Shown piece after piece: positions 31,301 to 57,202 of a stretch of DNA of 64,000 bases. Position numbers and translations under genes: made by a program. Each line of letters opens with the position of its first letter. Positions within the stretch are counted from its first letter, which is position 1. Source of the DNA: Planctomycetota bacterium. Its GTDB lineage: Bacteria > Planctomycetota > Planctomycetia > Gemmatales > Gemmataceae. The stretch lies in assembly GCA_016191165.1 (NCBI GenBank), contig JACPPF010000169.1, positions 1 to 64,000 of the forward strand, in the 5' to 3' direction. The notes below the pieces were generated by a model, which saw nothing but the letters and a program-made list of their open reading frames with translations, was not told where the DNA came from and did no database searches.

Positions 31301-32767
31301 TTATTTCGGAGCTGATGGTAATGACACAAGGACATGTCCTTGTACGGCGAAGCCTCGTTCGCGGAGTCGGGCCTCCCAACCGTCGCGATTCCCGATCATC
31401 CTCGAATCATCGAGAAGACCATTCTCTTCTTCTTGCCGTGTAAGGTCGGCGAAATGCTGAAACGACGCATGATCCGGATGTAAAAACCTTTCCTTACGAT
31501 GGAGAATGGGCGGGTTCTCGCTTCTCGTGTAGTCATAGCATTCCAGCTGCCTAGCCCGCAACGAGAGCTTCACGCTTCGAAAAAGGGCCGGATGCGGATC
31601 GTTCTCGAAGTCGGGGTACACGAGGTAAGACACTTTTCCAGAAAACCGGTGCAGCTTGATGATATTTGCACCCTCTATTTCACCGAGGAAGCTTCGGGCG
31701 CAACCTTCGTAGATGCGAAGAAGAGGTTCGACGTGTTCCAAGGCACTTCGATGAAGGTATAGCGCGTTCGGCAACAGTTTCCCCACCGTCGACCTCTGGC
31801 ACGCTTCGTCGATGGCAGCCGCATCGCCTGCCCTGAATAGCAATAGGTCTGCCTGCGTGCACGCCTTCATGTACGTCCCGAAGAACGCTCGGAAATCGCG
31901 CTGCATGGTCGGCGGATAGCCGGAAAGCTTGGGGCGCTTCCGAAATCGGGCGAGAGCCAAGAAGACGAGAAGATCTTCCGTTCTTCGCCGGCGAATGGTG
32001 TCCCAGGCGTCCTCGCCCGTGACGCGGCGTACAAGAGCAAAGGCGCGCTTGAGCGATCCAAATCGGCTGATGATCTCTGGGCATTGACGAAACTCTTCGG
32101 GATCTGGTAGCCGCCCAAGAAGGGCGAGGGTGTTCATGAACGGATGCAGCACTTCCCGGTGTTCCTCGAATCGCCGTTCTGAAACTCTCTGCCGTGGCAC
32201 GGCTGGGCCACGCCGAACACGGCTTGCGAGAAACTGCTGACGATGGGCGTCGTCTTTGAACAAATAGAAGACGCCAACTGTCGCCGGAATTGCCTCCGTC
32301 TTTAATTCAGCTTCGAGGTACTCCCTGAGTTCAGCTTGCTCAAAAAACTTCTGAAACGTCCCACGGCTCGTCAAGACACCATCGCCGAACTCCGTAAATG
32401 CATTCCCACGGCCCGGAATGCGCACCAAGGTTGAGACGACCAATAGCCGTCGAGCAATTCGCCACGCATGCCGGAGTGTCGAACTTCGCTCGGCGGGGTC
32501 CTCAATGACGTTAAGAACATAGCCAAGATTGACGACATCCGCCTCGGATACAGGCTCGTTTGGACGGAACACGGGGTCCCAGCCTTTGCCTGAAATCCCT
32601 TGAGCACCGAGGAGGTCGATGTCCTCACCGTGGCCACAGCCGAAGTCGAAGAAGGTCACCAACGGACTAAGCAAACCATCCGCAAGAGCACATTTCACCG
32701 GCCGTGAGATGTCGTGGCGACGGATCGCCGTCTTGAACCGGAGAATCGGGGATTGATCGGCATCCAT
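31301..32767 (-). CDS. Phosphorothioation-associated putative methyltransferase
   Basis: A 488-residue protein. Residues about 10-120 form a SAM-binding domain: RFKTAIRRHDISRPVKCAL, then FFDFGCGHGEDIDLL as motif I, GWDPVFRPN, and NLGYVLNVIEDPAER. This block fits the family annotated as DNA phosphorothioation-associated putative methyltransferase. The long C-terminal part is helical and has no clear motif. I chose the ATG at 32767; the frame is open to a TTG at 32836, directly after the upstream stop. It is the final gene of the operon with the second DndD-like ATPase and the DndE-HerA fusion. Its substrate is unknown, possibly DNA, and no target-recognition domain is obvious. Confidence 0.75.
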   Translation of the reverse strand: MDADQSPILRFKTAIRRHDISRPVKCALADGLLSPLVTFFDFGCGHGEDIDLLGAQGISGKGWDPVFRPNEPVSEADVVNLGYVLNVIEDPAERSSTLRHAWRIARRLLVVSTLVRIPGRGNAFTEFGDGVLTSRGTFQKFFEQAELREYLEAELKTEAIPATVGVFYLFKDDAHRQQFLASRVRRGPAVPRQRVSERRFEEHREVLHPFMNTLALLGRLPDPEEFRQCPEIISRFGSLKRAFALVRRVTGEDAWDTIRRRRTEDLLVFLALARFRKRPKLSGYPPTMQRDFRAFFGTYMKACTQADLLLFRAGDAAAIDEACQRSTVGKLLPNALYLHRSALEHVEPLLRIYEGCARSFLGEIEGANIIKLHRFSGKVSYLVYPDFENDPHPALFRSVKLSLRARQLECYDYTRSENPPILHRKERFLHPDHASFQHFADLTRQEEENGLLDDSRMIGNRDGWEARLRERGFAVQGHVLVSLPSAPK

Positions 32768-32839: not shown

Positions 32840-34507
32840 TCAAGTTCGACCTGCCGGGAAGAGTTCAAAGAATGGAACAACGCGAAATTTCTTTATCGGC
32901 TGATCTCGCCCGCCCGAACCGCGACCAAGACCCGACAGCGGTTCCATCTTGCCCAACTCAGTGGCCAATCGTCTTGCTTCCGGAGGGCTGCACCCAAGCA
33001 GCCGCTGCACGGCCTTCGGCTCTGTTTTGCAGGCGAGCATGAACGTGAACTCAAGCTGTTCCGTGTAGTCAAAATCGCTCTGGTCGAAATCATCCGGCGA
33101 TTGGCAGAGCAGAACGACCGCGAAACCCTTGCTGCGCCCTTCACGGATTATCCCCTGAAGGAACCGGTTTTTCTTGCTGAGATAGTATTGGGCCTCATCA
33201 ATGAACAGCAGGCAGCGCACGTGCCGGAAGCCACTTTGCGGGTCCACTGTTGATTCAGGCAGAATGCGCATTTCATGGTACAGCTGTTCGATTAGTGTGA
33301 AAGCGGTGACCTCTTTCAGTCCCCCAAGCTCGTGAATGTCCACAATCCACCGCTGCGTATGGAGCGGCGAGATCGGCGGACTGTTTTCGGCACGCGTCCA
33401 AAACAACTTATAGGCGTTAAGGCGACGAAACAGCTCGATGAGGGAATCTGGTTGCAGGCCCTCGGCCTCGTAAATATCCCGCAAGACGGTAAACACGAAG
33501 CCGAAGTCGGGCGCAGGAATCGGATCTTCTGCCAGCATCTTGTAGCTGGTACGAATGGCCTGCACGAGCCGCCCCTCTTGTTTGGGGCCCAGATTGCGGA
33601 AGAGGTTCGTGTAGACCTCACGCTTCTCCTCCGCGGCCAGCACTACGGCATCCTGCGAATAGTCACGGAGGTGAAACGGTCCAATCGGCAATGTGGTGCT
33701 GGGCAGATTGAATACCTTGGCCCCGACAGTCTCGACGAAGGCCTGGTTGGAAGCAACGTCCCCCTTGGCGAAGTCGATGAAGATCATGCCAGTGGCTGGA
33801 TCGGCCGCGCGCAATGCGGATGCTGCCAACTGCATGGCAAGCTGGGTCTTCCCGCTGCCGCTCATGCCGCTGACGGCGAGATGGCAGTTGCTATGTTTTC
33901 GGGCGTCATTCAGTGTAAGCGTGAAAGGAGCCTCGCCTTCCTTGAACCGGCCGATCGGAACGGTCAGCCCGGGAACATGGCCAGCTAGAGCCGGGATCAC
34001 GTCTCTCGGCTGAGTGCCCTGACCGGTAGCGCCGACAGCGGTGTCAGCCGCCTTGCGGGCGAGTGACACGATGAATTCGACAACGCCTTTTGCCTCGTCT
34101 AGGTCTGTAACAAGGAGGTCCAACCCCCGGTGCCAGTGGGCCAGGATCAGATCAAAGGCTTCTTCATCAGACTGCAGGGCTTTTCCATGGTGTTCCGCCA
34201 GCAGCGCCACGAACCACGGCAGGATGGCCGGGTCACGGCGCGGTTGAGAATCGTGGCGCTGTTGAGCACCGTGCCGTTGCTGAGTCTCGTGTCCATAACG
34301 AAACAGCGTTTCTCCCCGAAGCTCCTTCCCTTTGCGCGCTGCTTCGACCCTGGGGGGAGCTGCCGGCTCACGCAGAGATCTGGCAATCGCCAGTCTGCTG
34401 AGGAGGTCATCCCGCCAACTGGTAGCTTGAGCAAGTCGACTCAGCTTGGCGTTTGCTTCTTCGGTGCTCTTGTAACGTCGCACCAGGAGTTGGCTAGTAA
34501 TACCCAT
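32840..34507 (-). CDS. DndE-like domain fused to HerA/FtsK-type ATPase
   Basis: A 555-residue protein. The first 150 residues resemble DndE: STEEANAKLSRLAQATSW, LLSRLAIARSLREPAAPP and GKELRGETLFRYG align with the DndE encoded at 59250-59627 (LSNEASERLKHLKARTGM, LSRLGFCLSLSDPAIP, FNRYTLLGE), and ILAHWHRGLDLL with AHLNRGVLSLF. A P-loop ATPase follows, with Walker A SGMSGSGKTQLA near 212 and Walker B RCLLFIDEAQYYL near 432, as in HerA/FtsK DNA motors. A low-complexity His/Gln/Arg stretch lies around 80-95. DndE binds DNA, so the fusion could be a DNA translocase recruited to modified or nicked DNA. It sits 37 bases after the DndD-like gene. The start has AAAGGGAAA upstream. Confidence 0.8.
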   Translation of the reverse strand: MGITSQLLVRRYKSTEEANAKLSRLAQATSWRDDLLSRLAIARSLREPAAPPRVEAARKGKELRGETLFRYGHETQQRHGAQQRHDSQPRRDPAILPWFVALLAEHHGKALQSDEEAFDLILAHWHRGLDLLVTDLDEAKGVVEFIVSLARKAADTAVGATGQGTQPRDVIPALAGHVPGLTVPIGRFKEGEAPFTLTLNDARKHSNCHLAVSGMSGSGKTQLAMQLAASALRAADPATGMIFIDFAKGDVASNQAFVETVGAKVFNLPSTTLPIGPFHLRDYSQDAVVLAAEEKREVYTNLFRNLGPKQEGRLVQAIRTSYKMLAEDPIPAPDFGFVFTVLRDIYEAEGLQPDSLIELFRRLNAYKLFWTRAENSPPISPLHTQRWIVDIHELGGLKEVTAFTLIEQLYHEMRILPESTVDPQSGFRHVRCLLFIDEAQYYLSKKNRFLQGIIREGRSKGFAVVLLCQSPDDFDQSDFDYTEQLEFTFMLACKTEPKAVQRLLGCSPPEARRLATELGKMEPLSGLGRGSGGRDQPIKKFRVVPFFELFPAGRT

Positions 34508-34544: not shown

Positions 34545-36587
34545 CTAAAGGATGTCGAAATAACCTTCCTCGATGCTGGTTCGCTCGTTTTCCGTGTCGA
34601 AAACCAAGTGTAACGTTTTATCCACGCAGCCGCGCACCTTGTTGAAGTACTGATGATCCAGTTCGGTGTCGGTCGAAAGCACCAAGACTTGAGGCCCGGC
34701 GGCGGGCAGATACTGCGTTACGATGTTGGTCCGGTGCTTGCTATCAAGGCGGCCGAGCGGAGTATCGATCACCACGGGCACCTCACGGCGCGAGGTCTTG
34801 GCCAAGCCCCACAGTAGGGCCAGGGCAAAAATTTCCTTTTCGCCGGCCGAGAACTCATCGATCGGAATGGAGTTACCCTGACGATCCAGAAGTCGTGGGT
34901 CATATGTCTGTTCATCCAGGTCAATGTCTTGGACAACGTCCTCCTTGCGTGCGAGGCGACGGTACATAGCCCTGAGGTTTTTACGCAGCTCATCCCGTTT
35001 TCGGGGGCGGAGTTCTTCCTGATACCGCTGGACCGCGCGACGCACATTGCGAGCCAGGGCAGCCAGTTCGCCGGACTTTCCGCTGCGGGCGAGATCGTCC
35101 TCCTTGCGCTGCCTCTGACGTCGCTTCTCCCCCAGTTCATGTTCTTTGTCGTCGGTCTGCCGGCGCTTCATGTCAAAAGCCTCTTCGGCCTGACCGCGTT
35201 CCCGACTCAGCCGGCTTTTTGTTTCGATCAGCTTTTCAATCTCTTCGCCCTCACCTACTTGTTGGAGGGTCGCCTTCAAATGATTTGCCCGTCTCTCAGC
35301 CGTTTCGAGGCGGTCCAGAAGGACACGCAAGTCAGGTGCCTGTCGACGAACGACTTCCGAGCACTTCGCCCGCACTTGGCTCACTTCCTCGGGGCTCAAA
35401 CAGTCGTGCCTGAGTTCCTTTGCCGCGCCTTCGGGAGGAGGATAGAAGAGGTTGTTCCATCGGTCTCGAAGCATGGTGGAGTAGAAGTCACGTTGATTCG
35501 GAACCAGCGGTGGGTCTGACTGTGGCGCTGCTGGGCTGAAAATCTCGGCCACAAGCCGTTCGAGTTGAGGCTGCACGCGGCGGCGCCCTTCGTCCCAGGT
35601 TCGAAAGAGTTCCTCACCGTGCAACTGTTGGACAAGCGAGTGAATTGGCTGCATCGGTAGCGCGAGCACGACAAATTCCTCGATCATTCCCTCGATTTGC
35701 TTTCGCAGTCCTTCGCTTTCCGCTTGAAGCTTTTCCTGTTCAGCTCGCAACTCCGCTGGCCGCTTCCCCTCTGGTCCGAGCATGCGATCAAGTCGCGCGT
35801 CGATCTTGCTGAGCTGTTCGTGGATTCCCGCGATCCGTTCCTCGAGGTCTTGTCGTTCGTGACTCAGTTCCTCAATCTGGCTTTCAAGCTGTTGCTCTTC
35901 AGCGGCTAGTCTTGTCAGCTCTACTTCTTGGTCGCTCCGTTTCTTGCTTTCCCGGCGATACCGGTTGTGCAATTCGTCGAGGTCGGTTTCGAGCTGCTGA
36001 AGCACCTGAAAGCCGAGCAACATATCGATGCCGTTGCGCACTTCCTCGTTGGGGTTGGCCTCGGCGATTCGTCGGATCTCTTCTCCATCGAACATGAAAA
36101 ACCGTCCGATATGGGGAGGGATCGTGTGCTTCAAATAATCTCGCTGTTCCTGGTCCGGATCCTGATCGAACTTAAGGGGCTCGCCGTCAAAGAGAATGTC
36201 AAGTCTTTCGTCCTTCATGCGCAGGGCATCATCGAAAGCCCACTCCCTGCGAACCTCGATCGTATGGCCTTTATCCAGCAAGTGAAGAGTTACAGCCGCT
36301 TGTCGCTTGCCCTCCCGATACGCGGCCCGATTGAGAAGGCTTGCCAGGATACGGTCGCGCTGGGACTTGCCTTCTCCAGCCCTCGCTAGTCCTTTGATGT
36401 ACAGAAAGGCGTCGTCATATCCGAACAGAGCAAACGTGATTGCATTGAGTAACGTGGTCTTGCCAGCGCCGTTCAGGCCGCCGATGACAACAAGATTCTT
36501 GCCGCTGCCTGGCACCACACTCAGGTCTGCTTGCTGGTGACCGTAGTAGCAGCCAAAATCTTCAAGTTCGACGCGTTGGATGATCAT
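34545..36587 (-). CDS. Second DndD-like SMC-type ATPase
   Basis: A 680-residue ABC/SMC ATPase related to the DndD encoded at 57203-59263. Walker A is GGLNGAGKTTLLNA (about 36-49). A long coiled coil spans about 200-480. The signature motif is FSAGEKEIFALALLWGLA near 577 and Walker B is VPVVIDTPLGRLDSKH near 605, followed by VLVLSTDTELDHQYF. These C-terminal blocks are nearly the same as in the canonical DndD (SAGEKQIFAISMLWALAQ, PIVIDTPLGRLDSDH). DndD is the DNA-nicking ATPase of phosphorothioation. This copy has its own partner set (DndC-tail protein and DndE-HerA) and no sulfur enzyme. AGGAGAAC precedes the ATG. It should be an active ATPase. Confidence 0.85.
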   Translation of the reverse strand: MIIQRVELEDFGCYYGHQQADLSVVPGSGKNLVVIGGLNGAGKTTLLNAITFALFGYDDAFLYIKGLARAGEGKSQRDRILASLLNRAAYREGKRQAAVTLHLLDKGHTIEVRREWAFDDALRMKDERLDILFDGEPLKFDQDPDQEQRDYLKHTIPPHIGRFFMFDGEEIRRIAEANPNEEVRNGIDMLLGFQVLQQLETDLDELHNRYRRESKKRSDQEVELTRLAAEEQQLESQIEELSHERQDLEERIAGIHEQLSKIDARLDRMLGPEGKRPAELRAEQEKLQAESEGLRKQIEGMIEEFVVLALPMQPIHSLVQQLHGEELFRTWDEGRRRVQPQLERLVAEIFSPAAPQSDPPLVPNQRDFYSTMLRDRWNNLFYPPPEGAAKELRHDCLSPEEVSQVRAKCSEVVRRQAPDLRVLLDRLETAERRANHLKATLQQVGEGEEIEKLIETKSRLSRERGQAEEAFDMKRRQTDDKEHELGEKRRQRQRKEDDLARSGKSGELAALARNVRRAVQRYQEELRPRKRDELRKNLRAMYRRLARKEDVVQDIDLDEQTYDPRLLDRQGNSIPIDEFSAGEKEIFALALLWGLAKTSRREVPVVIDTPLGRLDSKHRTNIVTQYLPAAGPQVLVLSTDTELDHQYFNKVRGCVDKTLHLVFDTENERTSIEEGYFDIL

Positions 36588-36630: not shown

Positions 36631-36852
36631 TCACTTGTCCTCCTTGTCGTTTGAAGTGACGAACTCCCTGAACAGGGAATCCAGCTGGGTCCAGATCAAG
36701 TGGCGGCGCCCCATCCCGAACACCTTCGTCTCTTCCTCAATTAGCGCCGCCACGAGACGCGGCGGAACGCCAATTTCGTCACACACGGATTCCAATACCG
36801 CGCGTTCATCGTCCGACAGGGATGGACTGCTCACCGTATCATCTGTTGACAT
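36631..36852 (-). CDS. Small stand-alone DndC C-terminal-domain-like protein
   Basis: A 73-residue protein. Residues 13-67 (DDERAVLESVCDEIGVPPRL, then VAALIEEETKVFGMGRR, IWTQLDSLFREF) align along their length with the last part of DndC at 55759-57201 (AKDQVILKDVCKKHGTPAEL, VARLIDVERQTQGMSRR, IYDRIEALFRQDW). The spacing is equal with almost no gaps, so it is a detached copy of the DndC tail. It contains no PP-loop. It is encoded directly upstream of the second DndD-like gene, the same order as dndC-dndD. The simplest reading is that it is the docking domain for DndD. GAGGGAGAG precedes the ATG. Confidence 0.75.
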   Translation of the reverse strand: MSTDDTVSSPSLSDDERAVLESVCDEIGVPPRLVAALIEEETKVFGMGRRHLIWTQLDSLFREFVTSNDKEDK

Positions 36853-36882: not shown

Positions 36883-37533
36883 TTACGGAACAAGGCGCCT
36901 TTCCAGGGCGGATTGGAATTCACTCTTGAATGCGGGCCAAATCGAATGCCGGCGAAGATAATCTAGTTCGCTGGGTAGGTCATCAGCCTGAGCCAGCGTC
37001 CGAAGGTTATCCGCTGTCGCGGTTTCAGGTGGAAGCCGCCGAACGAGTTCGTTGACGAGGTCATCGATCGAATGCAGAATCTTACGCAGATACCAAAGGA
37101 CGAGGGCAATGCACTTCGCGATGGCATTCTTGCGCCGGAAGCATGGCAGCGACAGCGATCGGGCGGTAGCGACCAGGCTCGCCACAAGGATCTCATGTAA
37201 TTCCCGGATCACCGTGCTCGCATCCGTGTCCGGCGGGTCATGTTCGCCAATGGATGAGGGAGCAGCTGCCAATTGACGACGGCGACGGCGAATTTTGTTT
37301 CTGGTGATCGTGCAAAGCCAACCGGCAAACGAGTCGCCAGGGCGGTCGAGCCGCAAATTCGTAATGCCTTTAATCGTGGCCAAGAAAACCTGCTGGGCCA
37401 CGTCATCCGCGTCAGCCGGCTGCAGCCCTGCATGCCGGCACCAATCAAGGATGGCCGGACCATATTGCTCAACCACCTGCTGCCATGCGTCTTCCGGATC
37501 TGTCGATCCGCGCACGATATCTGTCACCAGCAT
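36883..37533 (-). CDS. Sigma-70 region 2-like protein without recognisable region 4
   Basis: A 216-residue protein. The first 90 residues look like the core of an ECF sigma factor: WQQVVEQYGPAILDWCRHAG, DADDVAQQVFLATIKGI, then DSFAGWLCTITRNKIRRRRR. After this the expected region 4 helix-turn-helix is missing; the remainder is a different helical segment with PCFRRKNAIAKCIALVLWY in the middle. It may be an adapted regulator that no longer acts as a standard sigma factor, or a divergent one. AGGAG precedes the ATG. The gap to the gene upstream is 18 bases and to the DndC-tail gene 30 bases, so it belongs to the six-gene operon. Confidence 0.6.
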   Translation of the reverse strand: MLVTDIVRGSTDPEDAWQQVVEQYGPAILDWCRHAGLQPADADDVAQQVFLATIKGITNLRLDRPGDSFAGWLCTITRNKIRRRRRQLAAAPSSIGEHDPPDTDASTVIRELHEILVASLVATARSLSLPCFRRKNAIAKCIALVLWYLRKILHSIDDLVNELVRRLPPETATADNLRTLAQADDLPSELDYLRRHSIWPAFKSEFQSALERRLVP

Positions 37534-41394: not shown

Positions 41395-41576
41395 GCTTCA
41401 ATGGGTCCACGGTCTGATAACCGTGGTTATGTTCGTACCAATGTGCAAACGGCGTTTTCCGATGGGGCTTCAATGGGTCCACGGTCTGATAACCGTGGTT
41501 ATGTGTGTGCAAGGAGGCCAAGAAAGAACCAATCTTCGAGCTTCAATGGGTCCACGGTCTGATAACCGTGGTTATG
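41395..41576 (-). CRISPR. Type I-G CRISPR array, three repeats and two spacers
   Basis: Three identical 37-base repeats lie at 41395-41431, 41467-41503 and 41540-41576 with spacers of 35 and 36 bases. Read on the minus strand, in the direction of the cas genes, each repeat contains the inverted arms ACCACGGTTAT and ACCGTGG and ends in ATTGAAGC, close to the ATTGAAAC end common in type I repeats. On the plus strand each repeat begins GCTTCAATGGG and ends CCGTGGTTATG. All three are intact, so the array looks short rather than decayed. The ECF sigma gene ends it at the other side. Confidence 0.95.
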
Positions 41577-41836
41577 GCTCGCTGTCGTAAAACACGAAAC
41601 GCATGGGGTTTCTGTGCCCTCAAGCGAGAGGATAGTGACATTGGTATGTCAATCGAATTGCGAGTCAGTGGGGTCACACTATAAACTCCTTGTGTATGCG
41701 GACTTGTAATCCGCGAGAGGCTTCCGCTGAGCGAAATCAAAGATAACCTCCAATTGTCAAAGAACTTTTGGCTTCAAAGAAGCTACACGGCGAGTTCACC
41801 ACGTCTAAGCTCGCGGGCGCAATGGCAACAAGAATC
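41577..41836 (-). promoter_or_regulatory. Probable CRISPR leader
   Basis: The 260 bases between the end of csb2 and the first repeat contain no gene and are more AT-rich than the cas genes. In minus-strand orientation this is the leader side of the array, where the array promoter and new-spacer insertion would be expected. No exact boxes were assigned. Confidence 0.45.
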
Positions 41837-44005
41837 CTAAGTCACAGCATCGTGATCTCCTTCCTCTTTCTCCTCGACTGGAATGAAAAGCCCGAGCCCG
41901 AAATGACATTGATCCCCGATTGCGAACGGGCGTCGTGATATTCGTTTGTGGAATATCAAACAGAACATGCGGCCTGGCCCTCGCACTTCGTGATTTCGGC
42001 GACGCCGGCAGAATTCCAAGGATCGCACAAAGCGTTTGCCTCCCTGAACACGCAGGCCGCTAGAAGCACCGAACGTAAAAGCAGCGTCAGGCTCCTTCTG
42101 AAAACACCCTTGGTAACGGCTGCTTTGGGTCCCTAGACTGGCGAAGTGTGGGAGTTGCGCATACTCGATTGGCGGATCTATCACGGGAAAGTATTGGCGC
42201 GGGGGAATAGGCTGATGAAGCTCACCATTGGCGACCGAACGCTGAACAGCCACTAACTCTGCTGGCGCGTGATCGAATACAAGCTCCTGGATCACCACGT
42301 CGTCGTCTTGTTCAATGAGTTGCTGTTGCCGCAGTCGTTTGCGAATATCCTTCTTGATGCTGTGCGGACGCGATGAACGAGAGTTCCTGCCGCGAGACAG
42401 AGAAACGGGACAGAAGTATGGCGTTGCCGAAACGAACAGTTTCGAACATTCGCCATTGCTTGATGACTGCCACAATTGGTAGTCGCAATCTCGTCCGACA
42501 TAAATCGGCGTGACCAGAAGATCCGGGCGACCGCCGCGTTGGCGGAGCCGGGTCAGTCGTCGCATGGCGTCGATTTCGTGTCGTTCAAATCCCGCGCGTG
42601 CATAGACGGTCACATGGTCGAGCAGGCCGTCATTGTCTTCGTCCGTAGGCCACCAGAATGCGTGGTCGTGATTACGGCAGGGTTCCCCGTTCATCTCGTG
42701 CCCGCTCACTGCTCGGCCCGGGTGGCGCGCCAGTGCCATGACAGCCGAGCGGAAACGATCCGCGACGAACAAGGTGTCGGTGAGTGGCGGCAGAACCGGA
42801 CAGTGGACAGTGGCCGTATTCAGCGCATACACGACAAGATTGACAGACTCGGGTGTGCGGGACCGCACTTGTGGTCCAGGGCACGGGATATCAAACACAG
42901 CACGAGGAACGGCAAAGTGAACCCAGCGAGAACCGATGGGACGATCCAGACCATCTTTGAAGTCCTCACCCGATTCCCGAAGCAGACAGCGGAGAAGCGA
43001 GTACCGGGCGGGCTCACCCTTGAGGAGTTCCCGAAAATCGGCGTCTGGTGGGCGGGCCTCCGTGGCGACGGGTTTGGTGCGAGGTAGCAGATCGGTTACT
43101 TGAGCTTGCAGATCCTTGTCCCCACACGGAGCGAGACGGCGTTCGAGGTTGTAGTCTCGGTACTCCTTGCCATCCACCCTGCCGGTATCCTCGATGCAGG
43201 TGCAGCGCCAATGGGTTTGTGTTGTCCCTTCGATTACCACGTCCGGGAGTTCCGGCATATTGCCAACACGCGCGTTAGCGCGACACCACGACTCCGCCCG
43301 CCCGAAGTATGTCATCCGGCCGAGGACCAACTTGAGGTCCGCGAGTGATTGCGGATCGAGGTTAACATCAGGCCAGTGGAAAACGAGTGGTTGGTCCTTT
43401 CGCACCGTCACGAAGGTGTCGAAAACCGTAGAGCCGGAATTCCTGACGATGCCGCCTTCGTGAATTGGAAAGTATTGCCTCGTGTGACCACCGGCGACTT
43501 TGGGAAGCCAGATGGTCGTCGTTGTAGATAGTGCGTGAAGTAGGGTCGAAAGGCGCGAGAGTGGAATCTCGTCTGCTTCGATATCTGCAAGAGCGCGTGG
43601 GGGTACGGCTGCAATTAGGTTACGTAACTGCTCCAGCGCCCTCGCGAACGCATCGCCGGGGTTCGCGGCCTTCCAAGCGTCAACCTCCGCATCGGTCAGT
43701 GGCTCGTTCAGTCTCAACGTTTGCTTCGCCTTCGAGAATGACAACTTTTTCTTCGCTTCCGGTGGAACGCCGCGTTCCCTCGGTTTCGCCATTCCTGGGA
43801 CGGTAACGACGGGCTCCGGCTTCGGCGGTGGACCTTCATCTGGATAGGGCAGGGTCGTGAGCCCCCGCCCGGTGACGGCGACCAGGGCGCGGAGCAACCG
43901 CCAATGTGAAGGCGGCCACTCGACTCGGCCTTCGTTGTGGTGCGTCTGCCACGGGTGCAAGTGCGCTCGGCCAGTCAGGAAATGAAAGGAGATTGCGAGG
44001 CTCAT
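41837..44005 (-). CDS. csb2: Type I-G Cas5-Cas6-like protein Csb2
   Basis: A 722-residue Cascade subunit of the I-G (former I-U) system. Csb2 combines a Cas5-like part and a Cas6-like part in one protein, so it should both process crRNA and cap its 5' end. The N-terminal RAMP fold starts MSLAISFHFLTGRAHLHPW; a Cas5-type LGRMTYFGRAESWCRA block is near 245. The C-terminal third is rich in Arg/Ser with strand-turn patterns suited to Cas6. The start ATG at 44005 overlaps the csb1 stop by four bases. The frame continues upstream to 44071 but that part is unlike the family. The CRISPR array follows directly downstream. The catalytic residues of the Cas6 part could not be assigned. Confidence 0.85.
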   Translation of the reverse strand: MSLAISFHFLTGRAHLHPWQTHHNEGRVEWPPSHWRLLRALVAVTGRGLTTLPYPDEGPPPKPEPVVTVPGMAKPRERGVPPEAKKKLSFSKAKQTLRLNEPLTDAEVDAWKAANPGDAFARALEQLRNLIAAVPPRALADIEADEIPLSRLSTLLHALSTTTTIWLPKVAGGHTRQYFPIHEGGIVRNSGSTVFDTFVTVRKDQPLVFHWPDVNLDPQSLADLKLVLGRMTYFGRAESWCRANARVGNMPELPDVVIEGTTQTHWRCTCIEDTGRVDGKEYRDYNLERRLAPCGDKDLQAQVTDLLPRTKPVATEARPPDADFRELLKGEPARYSLLRCLLRESGEDFKDGLDRPIGSRWVHFAVPRAVFDIPCPGPQVRSRTPESVNLVVYALNTATVHCPVLPPLTDTLFVADRFRSAVMALARHPGRAVSGHEMNGEPCRNHDHAFWWPTDEDNDGLLDHVTVYARAGFERHEIDAMRRLTRLRQRGGRPDLLVTPIYVGRDCDYQLWQSSSNGECSKLFVSATPYFCPVSLSRGRNSRSSRPHSIKKDIRKRLRQQQLIEQDDDVVIQELVFDHAPAELVAVQRSVANGELHQPIPPRQYFPVIDPPIEYAQLPHFASLGTQSSRYQGCFQKEPDAAFTFGASSGLRVQGGKRFVRSLEFCRRRRNHEVRGPGRMFCLIFHKRISRRPFAIGDQCHFGLGLFIPVEEKEEGDHDAVT

Positions 44006-45351
44006 TCTTGGTCCTCGGCTTCTTCGGCGCCAGCCGTTTTCTTCTGTACCTTCTTCCACGCGTCGTTCCACTTCTTCAGGGCTTTCTTGATGACATCATG
44101 GGCGGGGTTGTCAACCTCTTCACCCTCGTTGTTATCCTTCTTCACCGGGTTCTTGTCCAATAGAGCCTGTTGGTCCTCTTCGGGCCATTCACCCGTGATG
44201 ACCAGCGCCTGGAACGTCTTCCTGTTGTTTCCTTTGCCTTCAATGAGCTGCTTCACCTCGGCTCGATCTGTGAAGCCTTCCAGAACAAAGTTCTCGGCGG
44301 AAAGCCCCTCGGTCAATGCCTCCTTGCCGACGATGTCCAATGCATATGTAACGACCACAACCCGCCGCCGGGCCCATTCGTCACCTTCGTTGTGACGGGG
44401 GAAACACCTGTCTCGGGCAGCAGAGAACGCATTCAGGATGTCTGGCGAGCATGGCCATTTGCCATTGCCGTCGCCAAGGTCCTGAGACTGGCCTTCTGGG
44501 CCGTCAAGCGTAACCTTCATGCCCAGGACTTGGAACTCGCAAGCCGTCCTCAGCCGAAGATGCTGGTGAAGGAACCGGTCGATCTTGTACAAAGCCCACG
44601 CCTGCAGGAACCGACTCTTATGGTCGTCAAGGCCGTACCCTTTCAGCGTTGACAGGTGGAGGATGAACGATGCGGTGATGCTCGACGATGTGAACTCTTG
44701 CCGGGGATAGGGGATATTGTCCTTCGCTGTCACCTCGCCCCGATACACGCCGCCGGAGTTTGCCTGGTTGGGCGAGCATGCTTCGATGTATGCCGAGACG
44801 AGCCGAGGTAGTCGAATGCGACCATCGATCTCTTCCAGGAAAACGCCGTGCAACACGCAGCCAGGATCGCGATCAAAGATGGTTGGGACCATGCGCCAAA
44901 TGTGAACTGGGCGCTGCTTGTTGGACCCGAGTGCTGTCTTCAGTTCTTCGCGATACACAGCACCGTCTCGCTTGGCGGCCAGAACGTACGGGGAAGCCAA
45001 GCGATGCGGCTCGCGCACGGACGATGTGAGGAATGTGTTGCCATTATGGCCGTCAAGGACGCGCACATACGGGACACCCAGGCAATCAGGGTTATAGTCC
45101 TCGCCTTGAAGGCAGACGTCCTCCAAGCGGTTGGCCATCGACTGAACGGATTCGACGAGCAGCATATCCACGGTTTCCGTAACCGGGGGCTGGTCACCGT
45201 TCGGAGCGGCGCGAACTCCTTTGTAGAGTGCCGGGCCGAGGTCCGGGAAGCCCGTCGGCTGGAAGCGGCCACCGCCGCCGGTGGCGACCTTGAGTTCGGC
45301 TTCGACGAGCAGCCGCGAGGCGGTATCGAGCGGGGTGAAATCAATCGGCAT
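44002..45351 (-). CDS. csb1: Type I-G Cas7-like protein Csb1
   Basis: A 449-residue backbone subunit that should polymerise along the crRNA. Family features include LLVESVQSMANRLEDVCL near 85-102, the block QANSGGVYRGEVTAKDNIPY near 195-215 with the following SSSITASFILHLSTLKGYG, and an acidic-basic C-terminal tail rich in Lys and Glu. The gene begins 14 bases after csx17 ends and overlaps csb2 (ATGA). Its size is at the upper end for Csb1 because of that charged tail of about 60 residues. Confidence 0.85.
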   Translation of the reverse strand: MPIDFTPLDTASRLLVEAELKVATGGGGRFQPTGFPDLGPALYKGVRAAPNGDQPPVTETVDMLLVESVQSMANRLEDVCLQGEDYNPDCLGVPYVRVLDGHNGNTFLTSSVREPHRLASPYVLAAKRDGAVYREELKTALGSNKQRPVHIWRMVPTIFDRDPGCVLHGVFLEEIDGRIRLPRLVSAYIEACSPNQANSGGVYRGEVTAKDNIPYPRQEFTSSSITASFILHLSTLKGYGLDDHKSRFLQAWALYKIDRFLHQHLRLRTACEFQVLGMKVTLDGPEGQSQDLGDGNGKWPCSPDILNAFSAARDRCFPRHNEGDEWARRRVVVVTYALDIVGKEALTEGLSAENFVLEGFTDRAEVKQLIEGKGNNRKTFQALVITGEWPEEDQQALLDKNPVKKDNNEGEEVDNPAHDVIKKALKKWNDAWKKVQKKTAGAEEAEDQE

Positions 45352-45365
45352 GGGCAGTCCTCCAG

Positions 45366-47834
45366 TTATGCAGTGATGGATTCGGGTCTGATGGCCAGTG
45401 CAGCCGAAACGCCGGGGTGTTCAACAGGAATCAGCATCATGGAAGCCAGACGCCGGCAATCAAGCCGCATGGGGAGCAATGCAATGTCCATATGGCGGAG
45501 AATTGCTGGGTAACCCTTCGCTCGGAGTCGGCGACCGGCCAATTGAGCGGCGTCAGCCAGCCGCTCGGCCTCCAGCAACGACAGAATGTCCAGGCAGTCT
45601 GGCGGGAAGGGCTCCTTGCCGGTTCTTCGTGCGCTTTCGCCTTCGACCGGCCGACGAGGTAACTTGCTGCCAACGAAACAGAGCTTCATCAGATGGTACA
45701 CCCGCGGAAGTTCGCAAGCCGCATCGAAGTCAGATTCCAACCACTGTGGAACTCGCAGTTTCCCCTTCGGGATGTCGTCGACGAAGTAGATTTGGGACGT
45801 GTCGATATCCGGTGTTTCGCATCGTTCCGGCTGCTTTTGTTGCCAGTCATCGACACGATCCTGATCCCATGGCCCGGGGTCGAGGAGCGCGAGGCCGTGA
45901 ATCAGCTCCCCGAGTCGCCCCTCGTCAACCTTTCCGTTCCAGTACGCGACAAGGTCGGAGAATGGTGCCCCATGCTGGCTCCAGAGCGGCAAGCCTTCGC
46001 CCTTTCCACGTTGCGCGTCGATGAGCCGGCGACGAAGTACGCTGGTCAGGTTGGCGCTCAGCGATGCTCCTCGCGACCACACGGCGCCGCGGTTGGTCTC
46101 GTCCCACTTCCAGGCTCGGCCACGGCGCCGCACCGGCAGCAGGTTCGACCGGATGGCCTCAACGGCGGGCCGATTTGGCTCGGACGACTCGCCCCAGGCC
46201 GCGATGCCCGCAATGGCCCGTGCAACTCGGAAATGAATGGCTTCGGAATCGGACAAGCTATCCAATCGGCTTGGAGCAGCGCTTCGGCACCAGCCGGGAT
46301 CGAGTGAGGGAACAGTCGGAATCACCCGCTCGACCGTGTTTTCGCCTTGCTTGAGTTTGACGATGCCGGGCTTGGCAGAGTTGGCGCCAAGTTCGGACAT
46401 CAGGCGGCCTGCGGTCACCAGGAGTTCCAGCAACGCGGCACGACAGTCGCTTCGCTGTGATGTCGCCCCGTACCACGCCCGCTCGAAAGCGATTCGAGCA
46501 TTGAGGAGACGACGAGGTTGCTGTCCGTTGTCGCATAGGTAGTTTGTTACCTCTTCAGCGAACGACCGCAGCTCGGCGACGAGGTGTAGCACTGGCTCGT
46601 TCTCAGGAACAAATTTGCCGCTCGGCACCGCGAGCAACGTTGTTTGCCTTCCCGAGCCACTGCGCTCGAGAAGGGAGTACCGAAAGAACGCTCGGATTCC
46701 CCTATCAATGCCGAGGCCGCGCATCGCCAGAGCGAAATCGAGTGAGCGAGTAGCAGGCCGGTCGCTGACTTGAATCCTGCCCTCACCAAAGATCCGCTCG
46801 ATTTCCGCCAGAGTGCATGGGCCATCCCAAATCGGGCACCACAGTTCCCCGTTTGCGATAGATTTTTCCGCGCCTTCCACCTCCTTTGGCCCGATCGTTG
46901 GTGATCCGCCGAACGACCCCCGGCAGTAGAACGGGAACGACGCGCGTTCCTTCGTTACGCCGTTGCGTTTCGTCGCCGCCAGGGACCAGACCAGGGTGCC
47001 TTCGAGAAGGAGGATGAAATCCCACGGATTGACGAATCGCTGGCCGTCCGGGAGAAAGTTTTGAGACGAGTTCCAATTCTTGACATATGCCGGGTAGTAC
47101 ATTGCCGACAGAACACCGATCTGCAAGGCTCCGGCTCGATTCTCCGCGAAGAGGCTTGCTTCCAACTGCCTCTTGCTCTGGTCCTGGTCATCGAGAAGCG
47201 CAGACTTCAGCCGCTGCTGATGGTTCACGATGTATTGCCCGCTCGCCTCCCCACCACCGCTGGCAAGGATCGGGAACCACTTGGGAACGTCGTCGGTCGT
47301 CGAACGCGAGGCCGACAGGCCCACCGCGTCAAGCCATTTCAAGCCGACGGCTGAAGTCATTCGGTTCCGCAGGATGCGCAGAAGGTGGGCGTCGGAAAGA
47401 TCGGTACGTGCGGTCTGCATCTGATCCGGCCACTTGCTCGCATCCTCGCCAAGGCCAATCCCGAGCGCAGCGGCGAAACAGCGAAACACGTCACGGAAGT
47501 ACTCGGTGCCATTGTGTGTCGCGCCGAGCAACTCCCGGAGGGCAACGCCACCGGCCACCCGCTTGCCGATCGGCAGGTAACCCGTCCCCTTCTGCCAAGG
47601 AGCGATCAACGGCGTAAATCGGCATGCCTTCAACAGCCAGCAAGCGAGTTCCACATTCGCAGACGTTTTGTCCAGCCACTTGTGTTGAAGGATGTGGAGC
47701 ACCCCATTCTTCCACCAGGCTCGCGCTAGGGGGTCGGCTTGTTCGGCGATCAGCCGGAAAACGCCCAGGCCTTTGAGATAGTTGCCGAGTGGTTCTGGGG
47801 TGCAGCCGCGGAGTTCGAGGGTGTGCACGACCAT
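45366..47834 (-). CDS. csx17: Type I-G large subunit Csx17 (Cas8-like)
   Basis: An 822-residue protein fitting Csx17, the large subunit of type I-G effector complexes, which presumably recognises the PAM and recruits Cas3. The N-terminus HTLELRGCTPEPLGNYLKGL followed by GVFRLIAEQADPLARAWW is the characteristic opening. The ATG overlaps the cas3 stop by one base (TGATG). No nuclease motif is seen, as expected. Position between cas3 and csb1 and the intact length support a working locus. Confidence 0.9.
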   Translation of the reverse strand: MVVHTLELRGCTPEPLGNYLKGLGVFRLIAEQADPLARAWWKNGVLHILQHKWLDKTSANVELACWLLKACRFTPLIAPWQKGTGYLPIGKRVAGGVALRELLGATHNGTEYFRDVFRCFAAALGIGLGEDASKWPDQMQTARTDLSDAHLLRILRNRMTSAVGLKWLDAVGLSASRSTTDDVPKWFPILASGGGEASGQYIVNHQQRLKSALLDDQDQSKRQLEASLFAENRAGALQIGVLSAMYYPAYVKNWNSSQNFLPDGQRFVNPWDFILLLEGTLVWSLAATKRNGVTKERASFPFYCRGSFGGSPTIGPKEVEGAEKSIANGELWCPIWDGPCTLAEIERIFGEGRIQVSDRPATRSLDFALAMRGLGIDRGIRAFFRYSLLERSGSGRQTTLLAVPSGKFVPENEPVLHLVAELRSFAEEVTNYLCDNGQQPRRLLNARIAFERAWYGATSQRSDCRAALLELLVTAGRLMSELGANSAKPGIVKLKQGENTVERVIPTVPSLDPGWCRSAAPSRLDSLSDSEAIHFRVARAIAGIAAWGESSEPNRPAVEAIRSNLLPVRRRGRAWKWDETNRGAVWSRGASLSANLTSVLRRRLIDAQRGKGEGLPLWSQHGAPFSDLVAYWNGKVDEGRLGELIHGLALLDPGPWDQDRVDDWQQKQPERCETPDIDTSQIYFVDDIPKGKLRVPQWLESDFDAACELPRVYHLMKLCFVGSKLPRRPVEGESARRTGKEPFPPDCLDILSLLEAERLADAAQLAGRRLRAKGYPAILRHMDIALLPMRLDCRRLASMMLIPVEHPGVSAALAIRPESITA

Positions 47835-50794: not shown

Positions 50795-51078
50795 CAGGTC
50801 ACAATCACCACATCCTTAGCATCGTGCTTCTCCACCGGCCGGCCCAAGGCCTCAATTCCTTCAGCGCAGCGGTTGCACAGCGGGATGAACAGAACCTGGT
50901 CTTCCTGAAGGTTGATAATGTCATACAGCCGGCTCTTGAGTCGCACAAGGTCCGTTGTAGACAGGCGGCACAGGAACACCGAATACTGGCGACGAAAGCC
51001 GAAGTCTTCGCAAGTGCGGGCGACCTTGCGAAGACGCTTCGGATGGCAGATGTCGTAGGCCACCAAGTAGGTGTCCAT
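50794..51078 (-). CDS. cas2: Cas2 adaptation protein
   Basis: A 94-residue protein, normal size for Cas2. It begins MDTYLVAYDICHPKRLRKVA, with the ferredoxin-like first strand ending in the conserved Asp, followed by FRRQYSVFLCRLS and VLFIPLCNRC. The ATG at 51078 gives the standard start; the frame runs further to 51153 without family support. The cas3 start overlaps its stop by one base. With the Cas4-Cas1 fusion it forms the spacer-acquisition complex. Confidence 0.93.
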   Translation of the reverse strand: MDTYLVAYDICHPKRLRKVARTCEDFGFRRQYSVFLCRLSTTDLVRLKSRLYDIINLQEDQVLFIPLCNRCAEGIEALGRPVEKHDAKDVVIVT

Positions 51079-51112
51079 TGCGTTCGCCGGGAATCGTCGC
51101 GGCGCCTCCAGG

Positions 51113-52849: not shown

Positions 52850-52890
52850 TTGAGGTTCCTTTCGATGATGAGGTCGAATCCAGATCGTGT

Positions 52891-54162
52891 TCAGTTCCAC
52901 GGCGCTTTCTCGACGACGGTCTCTTCGGCATCGAAGGGGATGTGCGTCAGTTCAAGGCAGCCGATTTGGGGCAGACTCGTACCGAGAATGCTGGTCAGGT
53001 CACCGTACAGGCCCGACGTGTTGATCATGGCGCGATCGATCTGCTTTTCACGTTTGGCCCACAAACGCTGGATCGCCCGACGTTCGGAATCCAGGTCCTC
53101 CTTCATCGTGGCGAACGCCTCGATGATTCCTTCGACGCGCTGCTGGAATTCCGGCCCTACCAGGAACTGGTAGAGAAACTCCATTTTCGTTTGCTGGCCC
53201 TGCATGGACCGACGCGCTCGGGCAACTTCGAGCAAGCCCGATCGGAGCGCGATGGCCAGACCAACAACGTATTCGCGCTTCGTGACCCAGACGCCGTCGA
53301 TGCAACCGAAAGCGGCAAGCCCCTTCGGCATTTCCTCGGTCACCAAGATCGCAACGTGCGCCTTGGCCGCACGCTGATCGTCGCGCAGCTTCGGCAACCA
53401 TGCGTCGCTCCAGGCTTTGGTGCGTTTGGATTCCCAGAGGATCTTGCCGCACTCTTCGCCGGTCGCGTCGAAGGTGCAGTGAATGAGATCACCGCCATGC
53501 ACGCCAACCGGAACCTCCTCGATGCCATCCAGAGGGAAGTACTGCCGGAGCAGATCCTCTAGGAGCACCTCCATGACCTCGCCCTGGGCCTGCTGGGAAC
53601 CTTGTTCGGATTTGCGTTTCAGCTCGTCAATCTGATGCCGCAGGTCGCCAATCAGTTTTTCCTTGTCAGCGTCTTTCAATCGATGAGCCTCGTCCGCCTC
53701 ATTCTTCGCGTCGCCCCGGATTCTGGCCCGTTCCTCATCGAGAGTGCGACTGACGGTCAATTCCAGCGTCTGTTTTTCGTCCTCCAGTTGCCGCCGTTCC
53801 TTGCGGAGTTGCAGTTCCGTTCTCCGAACATCCGTGAGTTGTGTCCGCGTGGTCGCGAGTTGTTCTTGCAAATCGCGAAACTCTGTGGCGATCGATTCCT
53901 GCGCCCTGGACTTTGCCTCTTGCATGAGGCGATCTTGCTCTTGCGCGACCCGGCCGGCGACCTCCTTCTCGATTGCCGCGCGTGATTCTTCCAGGGCCTT
54001 TTCGCGATGCCGGATTTCGTCCAGGCGTTTTGCGAGTTCACCGTCCTTTCGCCGAACTTCTGCGTCAAACTCCTGACGCAAATGTTGGCGAATCTGTGCG
54101 GTCAGCGTCTCCGATACCGTGATTTCGCAACCGCAACTCGGGCAATGAATGATGTCTTGCAT
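52891..54162 (-). CDS. DUF2130 coiled-coil protein with PD-(D/E)xK-like block
   Basis: A 423-residue protein encoded 41 bases upstream of cas4-cas1 on the same strand. The N-terminus has a zinc-ribbon-like pair HCPSCGCEITVSE. A coiled coil rich in Glu, Arg and Gln covers about 30-210. The conserved DUF2130 core follows, with DLIHCTFDATGEECGKILWE and SKRTKAWSD, then LRDDQRAAKAHVAILVTEE. The D...E-x-K arrangement (WESKRT) looks like a restriction-type nuclease core, which I infer from the pattern. DUF2130 proteins occur alone in many genomes. Here the gene heads the cas transcription unit, facing dndB across a 192-base gap. The start ATG 54162 places the cysteine pair at the N-terminus. Confidence 0.75.
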   Translation of the reverse strand: MQDIIHCPSCGCEITVSETLTAQIRQHLRQEFDAEVRRKDGELAKRLDEIRHREKALEESRAAIEKEVAGRVAQEQDRLMQEAKSRAQESIATEFRDLQEQLATTRTQLTDVRRTELQLRKERRQLEDEKQTLELTVSRTLDEERARIRGDAKNEADEAHRLKDADKEKLIGDLRHQIDELKRKSEQGSQQAQGEVMEVLLEDLLRQYFPLDGIEEVPVGVHGGDLIHCTFDATGEECGKILWESKRTKAWSDAWLPKLRDDQRAAKAHVAILVTEEMPKGLAAFGCIDGVWVTKREYVVGLAIALRSGLLEVARARRSMQGQQTKMEFLYQFLVGPEFQQRVEGIIEAFATMKEDLDSERRAIQRLWAKREKQIDRAMINTSGLYGDLTSILGTSLPQIGCLELTHIPFDAEETVVEKAPWN

Positions 54163-54354: not shown

Positions 54355-55617
54355 ATGGATCAAGTTTTCCGACGGGATCGAGTTTCAGGGACGCCAGGGC
54401 ATGACTTCAAGAATGGAATCGAAAGCAACCGTTTTCTGCGCTACTGGTTGACCGAAAAAATAGATGACGCCAAGCTGTTCACGCGGGTATTGCGGTCAAG
54501 GAGGGCCGAGCTGGTGGATAATGCGCACACTTTTTCTGCAATTCGTGGGGTTCAAGGTGGCCGCGACTATTACGTTGCCATGGTCCCGCTGAAAGTCGTC
54601 CCAAAGCTCTTCCTTTTCGACGACGCCGAGCTGCCGCCTGATCTACGCGCGCAACGAACGCTGAACCGCGCGCGTGTGCCGGACATTGCCCGTTACTTGA
54701 TCGACAATCCGAAGAACTACACGTTCTCTTCGTTGACGGCGTCGGTGGACGGTCGAGTTCATTTCGAGCCCTCCGGGGACGCCGGGTATGCCGGGAGCAT
54801 CGGCCGTTTACTGGTGCCCATGACCGCGAGATTCCTCATCAACGATGGCCAGCACCGCCGGGCGGCCATTGAGGAGGCGCTGAGGGAACGGCCCGAACTG
54901 GGAGAAGAAACCCTTTCGGTCATTTTTTTCATCGACGCCGGCCTGAAACGCAGCCAGCAGATGTTTGCTGACCTGAACCGGCATGTAGTACGGCCGCCGC
55001 AATCGCTCGGTGTTCTGTATGACCACCGCGATCCGTTTGCCCAACTCGTCTGCCGACTCGTTGGTCGCGTGAGCGTCTTCAAGAATCTGACCGAGATGGA
55101 GAAGACTTCGGTCCCCACCCAGGCGAACAAGCTCTTTTCCTTGAGCGGGGTGCATCAAGCGACCCGAACACTCCTCGCGCTGGGTAAGAAGCGGCGGGTC
55201 ACGCAAGAGCAGGAAGACCTTGCCTGGGATTACTGGCAGGAAGTCGGACGGTGTATCCCTGACTGGCAGCTGGCGGCAGAGAAAAAAGTCAGCTGCGTTG
55301 AGTTGCGGCGGGATTATGTTCATGCCCACGGTGTAACATTGCTCGCCTTCGGGTTCCTCGGATCTTCCCTTCTGGCCAAAGAGCCTACGACCTGGAAAGG
55401 GACGCTCAAGCCACTTCGGAAGCTGGATTGGGCACGCTCCAATGCCGAGACCTGGGAGGGACGAGCCCTCGTGGGAGGCCGCATCAGCAAGGCACACATC
55501 AACGTCTTGTTGACCACGAACCTGCTGAAACAGTGCGTGGGCGTTCCTCTCTCCGACACGGAACGCCAGGTCGAAACGGATTTTGTGCACCGGCGGACTG
55601 CTCGAAACGCAGGTTAA
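54355..55617 (+). CDS. dndB: DndB, regulator of DNA phosphorothioation
   Basis: A 420-residue protein with the DGQHR motif that defines the DndB group: FLINDGQHRRAAIEEAL near 160-176, followed by VIFFIDAGLKRSQQMFADLN. DndB is not needed for sulfur transfer but modulates the modification and represses dnd expression in studied systems. It is encoded upstream of dndC in the same direction, 141 bases apart. The N-terminal 20 residues before HDFKNGIESNRFLRYW are poorly conserved, so the start could lie slightly downstream. Confidence 0.88.
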   Translation: MDQVFRRDRVSGTPGHDFKNGIESNRFLRYWLTEKIDDAKLFTRVLRSRRAELVDNAHTFSAIRGVQGGRDYYVAMVPLKVVPKLFLFDDAELPPDLRAQRTLNRARVPDIARYLIDNPKNYTFSSLTASVDGRVHFEPSGDAGYAGSIGRLLVPMTARFLINDGQHRRAAIEEALRERPELGEETLSVIFFIDAGLKRSQQMFADLNRHVVRPPQSLGVLYDHRDPFAQLVCRLVGRVSVFKNLTEMEKTSVPTQANKLFSLSGVHQATRTLLALGKKRRVTQEQEDLAWDYWQEVGRCIPDWQLAAEKKVSCVELRRDYVHAHGVTLLAFGFLGSSLLAKEPTTWKGTLKPLRKLDWARSNAETWEGRALVGGRISKAHINVLLTTNLLKQCVGVPLSDTERQVETDFVHRRTARNAG

Positions 55618-55758
55618 TCCACCCGAGATATCGAAGGAAACGCCGGCGGGCCGTGGCATCGCTTTTGTCATCGCGCCAATCCAGTTGTAGAATCAGCCTT
55701 GTTGGGCCGGTGCCCGAAGGGGACCGGCGTCGGTGCCACGTACTCGAGGATAGGGACA

Positions 55759-57201
55759 ATGGCAGTGTCATTGCCGCTAGTTGAGCGAAAGGAGCCTTCC
55801 GCCTTCGAGCGAAAGTCCGTTAAGGCTTTTCAAGAGGAGGTGCAAGGGATCTACCTTGCCGACAATCGTCCGTGGGTTGTGGGCTATAGCGGCGGGAAGG
55901 ACTCGACCGCGACGCTGCAGCTCGTCTGGTATGCGGTGGCTGGACTTCCTCCCGAGCAGCGAAAAAAGCCGGTCTACGTGATCGCCTCTGATACCTTCGT
56001 CGAGACCCCGGTCATTGTTGACTACATCGACGACAACCTCGAAGCGATCAACCGCGCCGCCAAGGAACAGGGCATGCCCTTCGAGGCGCACAAGGTAACG
56101 CCCGAGATCAAGGATACCTTCTGGGTGAACCTGATCGGCCGAGGCTACCCGCCACCTTCGACCAAGTTCCGATGGTGCACCGACCGCATGAAGATCCAGC
56201 CGGCGAACAAGTTCATCCTTGATCGCGTGGCCGAGTTCGGCGAGGTCATCATGGTCCTTGGCTCTCGCCAGGGCGAGAGCGCCAGTCGCGACCAGGTGCT
56301 CAAGGCCCATGCGATCAAAGGTTCCCGCCTTCGACGCCACAGCACACTCGCGAACGCGTTCGTCCTGGCACCCATTGAAGAGTTCACGACCGATGACGTT
56401 TGGACTTACATCCTTCAAGTCAAGTGTCCCTGGGGCACCAACAACAACCGCCTCGTGACCATGTACCGCAACGCGGGGGCCGGCGAATGCCCCCTTGTGG
56501 TGGACACGAGCACGCCATCGTGCGGCAACAGCCGGTTCGGCTGCTGGGTCTGCACCGTCGTCGAACAAGACCACTCCATGGAATCGATGGTGGACAGCGG
56601 CGAAGAGTGGATGGAGGCGCTGCTCGATTTCCGCAACCTGCTCAAGTCCCACCACGATCCGGAAGTGAAACGCAAAGTGCGCCGACTGAAGCGCCGCGAT
56701 GGCAAGATCAGGCTCAAGAAAGACGGCACGCCGTCCCCTGGTCCGTACGAGCTTGAAGAACGCAAGAAACTGCTGCGAACCCTTCTCGAAGTTCAACAGC
56801 AGGTAAGGCGAGAAGGTCCCGATCCTGACAACCGGCTCATCTCGGCCGGGGAACTGCATGAAATCCGCAGCATCTGGCGAACCGAGGAGTCGGATTGGGA
56901 AGATTCTGTTCCCGTCATCTACCGGCAGGTCGTGGGAGAGGATCTGGATTGGGTGCATGACGACGTAACCGCTCTCACCGCGAAGGACCAAGTAATCCTG
57001 AAGGACGTTTGCAAGAAGCACGGCACGCCCGCCGAACTGGTTGCCAGGCTGATCGACGTGGAACGCCAGACCCAAGGCATGAGCCGGCGTGCGGGTATCT
57101 ACGACCGTATTGAAGCGCTATTCCGCCAGGACTGGCCGGACGAGGCAGCCAGAGAGGCTTTTCGCTTGGGGCCGGACAAAACAGGGGAGGAAGACAACTG
57201 A
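55759..57201 (+). CDS. dndC: DndC, sulfurtransferase-type PP-loop enzyme of DNA phosphorothioation
   Basis: A 480-residue enzyme of the PAPS-reductase fold. The ATP-pyrophosphatase PP-loop is GYSGGKDSTATLQ (about 43-55). Cysteines able to hold the Fe-S cluster appear in FRWCTDRMK near 141 and in ECPLV, PSCGNSRFGCWVC near 244-264. It should activate DNA phosphate with ATP and accept sulfur supplied by a cysteine desulfurase. The C-terminal domain (about 410-465) is the part duplicated as a separate protein at 36631. The ATG at 55759 follows AGGATAGGGAC; the frame is open to 55699. dndD starts one base after its stop. No dndA gene is in the window. Confidence 0.95.
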   Translation: MAVSLPLVERKEPSAFERKSVKAFQEEVQGIYLADNRPWVVGYSGGKDSTATLQLVWYAVAGLPPEQRKKPVYVIASDTFVETPVIVDYIDDNLEAINRAAKEQGMPFEAHKVTPEIKDTFWVNLIGRGYPPPSTKFRWCTDRMKIQPANKFILDRVAEFGEVIMVLGSRQGESASRDQVLKAHAIKGSRLRRHSTLANAFVLAPIEEFTTDDVWTYILQVKCPWGTNNNRLVTMYRNAGAGECPLVVDTSTPSCGNSRFGCWVCTVVEQDHSMESMVDSGEEWMEALLDFRNLLKSHHDPEVKRKVRRLKRRDGKIRLKKDGTPSPGPYELEERKKLLRTLLEVQQQVRREGPDPDNRLISAGELHEIRSIWRTEESDWEDSVPVIYRQVVGEDLDWVHDDVTALTAKDQVILKDVCKKHGTPAELVARLIDVERQTQGMSRRAGIYDRIEALFRQDWPDEAAREAFRLGPDKTGEEDN

Positions 57202-57202
57202 C

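Follow-up and report, generated by a model that had tools for sequence, protein, structure and literature searches.

A free-standing homologue of the DndD-docking segment of DndC is encoded before a second dndD gene in a planctomycete

The 64,000-nucleotide stretch of planctomycete DNA analysed here (the window) encodes a 73-residue small protein (SP) that directly precedes a second DndD-family gene and is homologous to the C-terminal tail of DndC, the part of the sulfurtransferase predicted to dock on DndD. Our data suggest that SP is a free-standing docking segment whose most likely binding site is the ATPase head of DndD2, encoded next to it; it would serve as a clip in sister operons and as the head-binding subunit of an SP-DndD2-(DndE-HerA) machine in the window. 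We consider this reading, taken as a whole, probable.

The SP operon and the canonical dnd cluster

An earlier note, made from the sequence alone, had placed the 73-residue product at 36631-36852 without naming a strand. The ORF exists and lies on the minus strand; the plus strand is interrupted by stops over this interval and is not open. Translation starts at an ATG preceded by the Shine-Dalgarno-like, ribosome-binding-like sequence AGGGAGAG. SP belongs to a compact four-gene minus-strand run consisting of SP, DndD2, DndE-HerA, and a TIGR04096 gene, while a canonical dndB-dndC-dndD-dndE cluster (54355-59627, plus strand) is found about 18 kb away. The features are as follows.

36631..36852, minus strand (36852 to 36631): SP, ATG start, 73 aa; counterpart, as a separate protein, of the DndD-docking segment at the C-terminus of DndC, by homology, profile, triad, and fold prediction
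34545..36587, minus strand: DndD2, 680 aa, DndD-family ABC ATPase
32840..34507, minus strand: DndE-HerA fusion, 555 aa, N-terminal DndE-like domain and C-terminal HerA/FtsK-type ATPase
31301..32767, minus strand: putative methyltransferase associated with DNA phosphorothioation (TIGR04096, 584 bits), closing the run
54355..55617, plus strand: DndB of the canonical cluster
55759..57201, plus strand: canonical DndC of full length (480 aa), carrying a docking tail of its own
56959..57135, plus strand: docking tail of the canonical DndC, SP homologue, PF20306 over the gathering score
57203..59263, plus strand: canonical DndD1, 686 aa
59250..59627, plus strand: DndE of the canonical cluster

As the earlier note had also observed, SP lies just before a second dndD-like gene on the same strand (36587-34545). 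The product of this gene, DndD2, is a full-length DndD homologue (TIGR03185, 382 bits versus a curated cut-off of 245.85). Its Walker A, signature, and Walker B motifs are intact, and it lacks a CxC hook. In the DndE-HerA fusion, the DndE-like domain falls below the Pfam cut-off in the window and above it in relatives. The C-terminal ATPase of the fusion has intact HerA motifs and resembles the end of DndH; this is the only DndH-like part of the window operon, which has no DndF, DndG, or full-length DndH. The TIGR04096 gene has a likely Met start at 32767. We considered this gene as a marker of the SP-DndD2 operon type and rejected it, because it is found next to canonical clusters, and on its own, as well.

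With 73 residues and a match to the tail only, SP has no PP-loop domain with Fe-S cysteines and is not itself a DndC sulfurtransferase. A search of the genome for a second DndC found none (assembly 95% complete). As the only DndC belongs to the canonical cluster, the SP-DndD2 operon is without a sulfurtransferase of its own. One explanation is that the operon is a relic, derived from a dndC-SP-dndD-dndE::HerA ancestor by loss of the sulfurtransferase, and that the remaining genes, SP included, have no joint function and are decaying. The single DndC within the other cluster fits such a history, as does a sister operon (L109) that retains a tail-less DndC. However, all four ORFs are intact, as are the ATPase motifs of DndD2 and HerA, and SP keeps both its Shine-Dalgarno-like site and the interface triad described below. 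We regard a decaying operon as improbable. A search for a close relative of the window genome, for measuring selection, found none.

Immediately upstream of SP and on its strand, an ORF at 36883-37533 encodes a sigma-70 region 2 (ECF-like) with no recognisable region 4. A CRISPR-Cas locus (41395-52900) separates the two Dnd loci. By eye, its translations include Csb2/Csb1/Csx17-like proteins, Cas3, Cas2, and a fused Cas4-Cas1, and it carries three 38-nt repeats at 41395, 41467, and 41540, spaced 72-73 nt. With this locus between the two Dnd loci, the region is a defence island.

Homology of SP to the docking tail of DndC

The alignment that the earlier note had reported between the product and the end of the DndC at 55759-57201 is real. 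SP residues 11-63 pair with DndC residues 405-457 without a gap over 53 residues (36% identity between SP and the tail; BLOSUM62 score 100). The note had named scores no better than chance as grounds against its reading; none of 2,000 shuffles scored as high as the observed alignment (mean 30, sd 4.8, maximum 58), and the second-best window ORF compared with SP reached 41. NCBIfam models of DndC matched SP at their C-terminal ends, including NF005316 (positions 399-464 of 505, E 5.9e-6) and TIGR03183 (391-445 of 447, E 0.005), and the PADLOC DndC model matched at 400-457 of 468 (E 4e-7).

A profile built from 15 canonical DndC tails only was searched against 9,292 ORFs from 52 loci and recovered the window SP with an E of 2.1e-12. 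All matches with E below 0.05 were DndC or SP, and the next match had an E of 0.93. The reverse profile, built from SPs only, recovered the DndC tails (window DndC, E 7e-11). In a set of 10,078 ORFs from 58 loci, the DndC-tail profile recovered solely DndC tails and SP-like small proteins. All 18 SPs and 16 of the 17 DndC tails in this set stood directly before a same-strand DndD-family ORF. What stays constant is thus proximity to DndD, not to the sulfurtransferase.

The tail is also the part of DndC implicated in binding DndD. Residues 433-482 of E. coli B7A DndC are predicted by AlphaFold3 to pack on the globular head of DndD, and in pull-downs the combined mutation L458D/E462A/R471A abolished binding to DndD; DndD without both coiled coils retained DndC binding (PMC12193691). 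This interface is a prediction backed by pull-down; direct 1:1 binding of DndC and DndD had already been shown by co-purification (PMC4611135). For our comparison we used DndC of E. coli H240 (544 aa) rather than that of B7A. The H240 protein has L458, E462, and R471 inside 433-482, in the numbering used for B7A. Residues L37, E41, and R50 of SP correspond to this triad with equal spacing. Each of the three sites is invariant across the 15 DndC tails (15/15/15). Across 13 SPs, L is found in 11, E in 10, and R or K in 11, with R50 or E41 lost in some of the other SPs. SP thus resembles the B7A segment by homology, by triad and spacing, and by its position before dndD, but it stands alone, lacking both the PP-loop domain and the extreme C-terminal helix, which makes the second DndC-DndD contact.

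The earlier note had called the product a DndD-docking module. The match to the published segment and the complete triad agree with this name, although their support for it is indirect. At the level of sequence, SP is well supported as the counterpart of the DndC segment that is predicted to bind the DndD head, and from this we infer physical binding of SP to DndD2 and its site on the DndD2 head.

AlphaFold2, given the window SP with nine related rows, predicted three helices (14-27, 31-45, and 52-72) with only moderate pLDDT (mean 67.6, core 74-80). A natural in-frame SP-DndD2 pair (L049), folded as a single chain with the stop read as Trp, gave the same three helices (pTM 0.54, SP pLDDT about 70); this model is informative for pLDDT and secondary structure only. 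Foldseek on this chain returned Rad50/SMC heads, as expected, and nothing for SP, and a structure search found no solved structures related to DndC or SP. The three predicted helices of the window SP contrast with the SPs of CxC-ATPase systems, which were described as rapidly evolving and "mostly disordered" (PMC10853773).

Split operons and the order of free and fused forms

In 13 operons, the SP gene lies between a tail-less dndC and dndD. These are found in planctomycetes (L031-L033, L099, L100, and L108), on viral-filed contigs (L049, L117, and L119), in Methylorubrum extorquens AM1 (L035), and on closed plasmids of Burkholderia glumae, Rhizobium phaseoli, and Aureimonas (L124-L126). Beyond the catalytic domain, 14 canonical DndCs extend for a further 83-142 residues, and ten tail-less ones for only 7-20; dndC is frameshift-broken in L033 and L108. 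A DndE-ATPase fusion follows dndD in nearly all split operons where the sequence continues (L108 was read only to dndD2, and L119 ends within dndD2). Those of R. phaseoli, Aureimonas AU20, B. glumae, and M. extorquens AM1 share with the window SP, DndD2, and the DndE-ATPase fusion, in the same order. They differ in having a tail-less dndC ahead of SP, whereas the window operon has no dndC and ends with the TIGR04096 gene. In L109, the tail-less dndC stands at the far end of the operon, and SP still adjoins dndD.

These operons bear on the proposal of the earlier note that the domain was preserved where the PP-loop enzyme had been lost. The window operon indeed has no dndC, but SP is also free where dndC is encoded adjacent to it (the 13 operons) or elsewhere in the operon (L109), so enzyme loss is not why SP is free. 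The word "detached", used there for the domain, may even have the direction wrong, with the free form being the older one. We also considered a frameshift or assembly artefact of a single dndC. This was rejected, as no dndC fragment lies upstream of SP, 13 other operons have the free form, and the dndC of L109 is located elsewhere.

Phylogenetic analysis placed the DndDs that have a free SP in one clade (99/97), which includes the window DndD2, with the DndD of L109 closest to it. Canonical DndDs form its sister clade (95/86), and the CxC (Pbe) ATPases form a separate clade (100/97). The CxC motif is present in all 13 Pbe ATPases and in 0 of 27 others. Because a free small protein also accompanies outlying relatives of DndD, the free form perhaps came first and was captured as the DndC tail later, an order that depends on the root of the tree, which was placed at midpoint only. 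By extension, free SP could be the ancestral head-binding subunit of the DndD/CxC ATPases, in a role like that of a kleisin or of the Rad50-binding element of Mre11, captured as a DndC tail only in canonical Dnd. It would then be an exchangeable adaptor that chooses the enzyme on a DndD-DndE DNA-scanning core. We hold this idea tentatively and consider it somewhat unlikely. If true, the window operon would be such a core, running with a HerA motor and carrying a methyltransferase-like enzyme in place of a sulfurtransferase.

The clade structure and the split operons also bear on whether free SP acts in trans, occupying the head of DndD1 and limiting docking of DndC as a switch on sulfur modification. 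In its favour, SP and the DndC tail are 36% identical with common interface residues, and both clusters reside in one genome. However, SP is encoded with DndD2, itself a member of the free-SP clade, and the 13 split operons have SP beside their own DndD. We judge competition for DndD1 highly improbable.

Relation to known small proteins and proposed role

SP is in or near a known small-protein family (Pfam Sp-DndD, PbeB-like). Against PF20306 (Sp-DndD), the window SP scored 22.0 bits (E 1.8e-4), below the gathering score of 27.2, while the sister SP of L109 scored 30.6 bits and the SPs of Rhizobium and Aureimonas 48-56 bits. SP shares its size and its position before dndD with this family, which NCBI names "DNA modification system-associated small protein" and which the DndC tail matches too. 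It differs in its score. The Pfam name refers to small proteins of Dnd systems but assigns them no function and does not connect them with the docking of DndC.

Like PbeB of PbeABCD (PMC6459918) and the SP of CxC-ATPase systems (PMC10853773), the window SP is a small protein directly before a DndD-related ATPase. Here, however, the partner is a DndD-clade ATPase. Assignment of the window operon as PbeABCD was rejected, as DndD2 has no CxC hook and belongs to a different clade, and the PbeA helicase-nuclease is absent. The PADLOC PbeB model matched SP at 1.8e-5, and DndC models scored better. The DndC tail profile does not pick up most CxC-type SPs. The SPs of L041, L042, L043, L045, L046, and Halorubrum had no significant match, and those of L044 and L038 had a significant but weak one. 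Extension of the docking claim to all PbeB is unsupported.

For the SP/PbeB of CxC-ATPase systems, a role as negative regulator or sensor has been proposed, in which a mostly disordered SP holds the ATPase in check or detects a viral trigger (PMC10853773). The matches to PbeB and, below the cut-off, to Sp-DndD place the window SP in or near that family. However, three helices are predicted for it, it is homologous to the published DndD-binding segment of DndC, and defence is lost, not unleashed, when pbeB is deleted (PMC6459918). As CxC-type SPs mostly miss the tail profile, the proposal may concern a different set of proteins, and regulation or sensing by the window SP seems very improbable to us.

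Our preferred reading is that SP would be an obligatory small subunit of DndD2, attached to its ATPase head much as the DndC tail attaches to DndD1. In sister operons, it would be a clip coupling the separately encoded, tail-less sulfurtransferase to DndD. In the window genome, where the sulfurtransferase gene is missing from the operon, SP would persist as the subunit on the DndD2 head in a DNA machine made up of SP, DndD2, and DndE-HerA, and this machine would act alongside the canonical DndBCDE cluster. For this complex without its own DndC, we infer that the machine most likely either recognises phosphorothioate marks made by the canonical cluster or brings in another chemistry through the TIGR04096 protein. 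It has already been argued that a DndD-DndE core lacking DndC may rely on a different modification (PMC10853773).

The small-protein families and the DndC-DndD interface are each known already, separately. An earlier ABC-ATPase classification paper is reportedly where the small protein was first described. Among the papers we searched, none identified SP with the DndC docking segment or described a split DndC. pbeB is indispensable for defence (PMC6459918), and the role of SP/PbeB was guessed to be regulatory (PMC10853773). On our reading, the DndD-clade SPs at least would correspond to the one DndC segment with a mutationally tested DndD interface. This turns an unexplained gene into a precise experiment, and it offers a specific function that can be tested for small proteins of anti-virus systems that had been an orphan family. 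In one entire branch of Dnd systems, DndC is split over two genes, and its docking half may be overlooked by surveys that judge DndC by its length or in studies of the purified protein by itself. The same arrangement suggests how a DndD-DndE core could swap its enzyme.

Several further arrangements were observed among the related loci. The sister operon L109:716-6661 encodes a cysteine desulfurase, SP, DndD2 (broken frame), a DndE-AAA-type ATPase fusion, the tail-less DndC, and an HNH-type protein. In Mesorhizobium (L039), the C-terminal half of SP is fused to the N-terminus of DndD, with 0 of 3,000 shuffles as good in a targeted test; such Rhizobiales N-terminal fusions were not significant in the open profile search (E 1.5), and the fusion in Rhizobium L040 is weaker. 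Two DndD systems stand in a row at L039:7369-11923, a tail-less DndC, the DndD with the fused tail half, and DndE being followed by SP, a divergent DndD, and an FtsK-type protein. Viral contigs carry short tail-less DndC homologues of 346-418 aa (L055:5959-7017, L057:5947-7200, L058:5962-7035, L059:5968-7005, and L060:1352-2389), beside which no DndD was found. Allochromatium warmingii has an orphan DndE-HerA fusion (L034:9890-11404); 21 kb of its sequence revealed neither DndC nor DndD nor SP. Finally, the split operons of R. phaseoli (L125:7620-7823) and Aureimonas (L126:7581-7817) end with a TusA-family sulfurtransferase gene, whose product is possibly a dedicated sulfur carrier.
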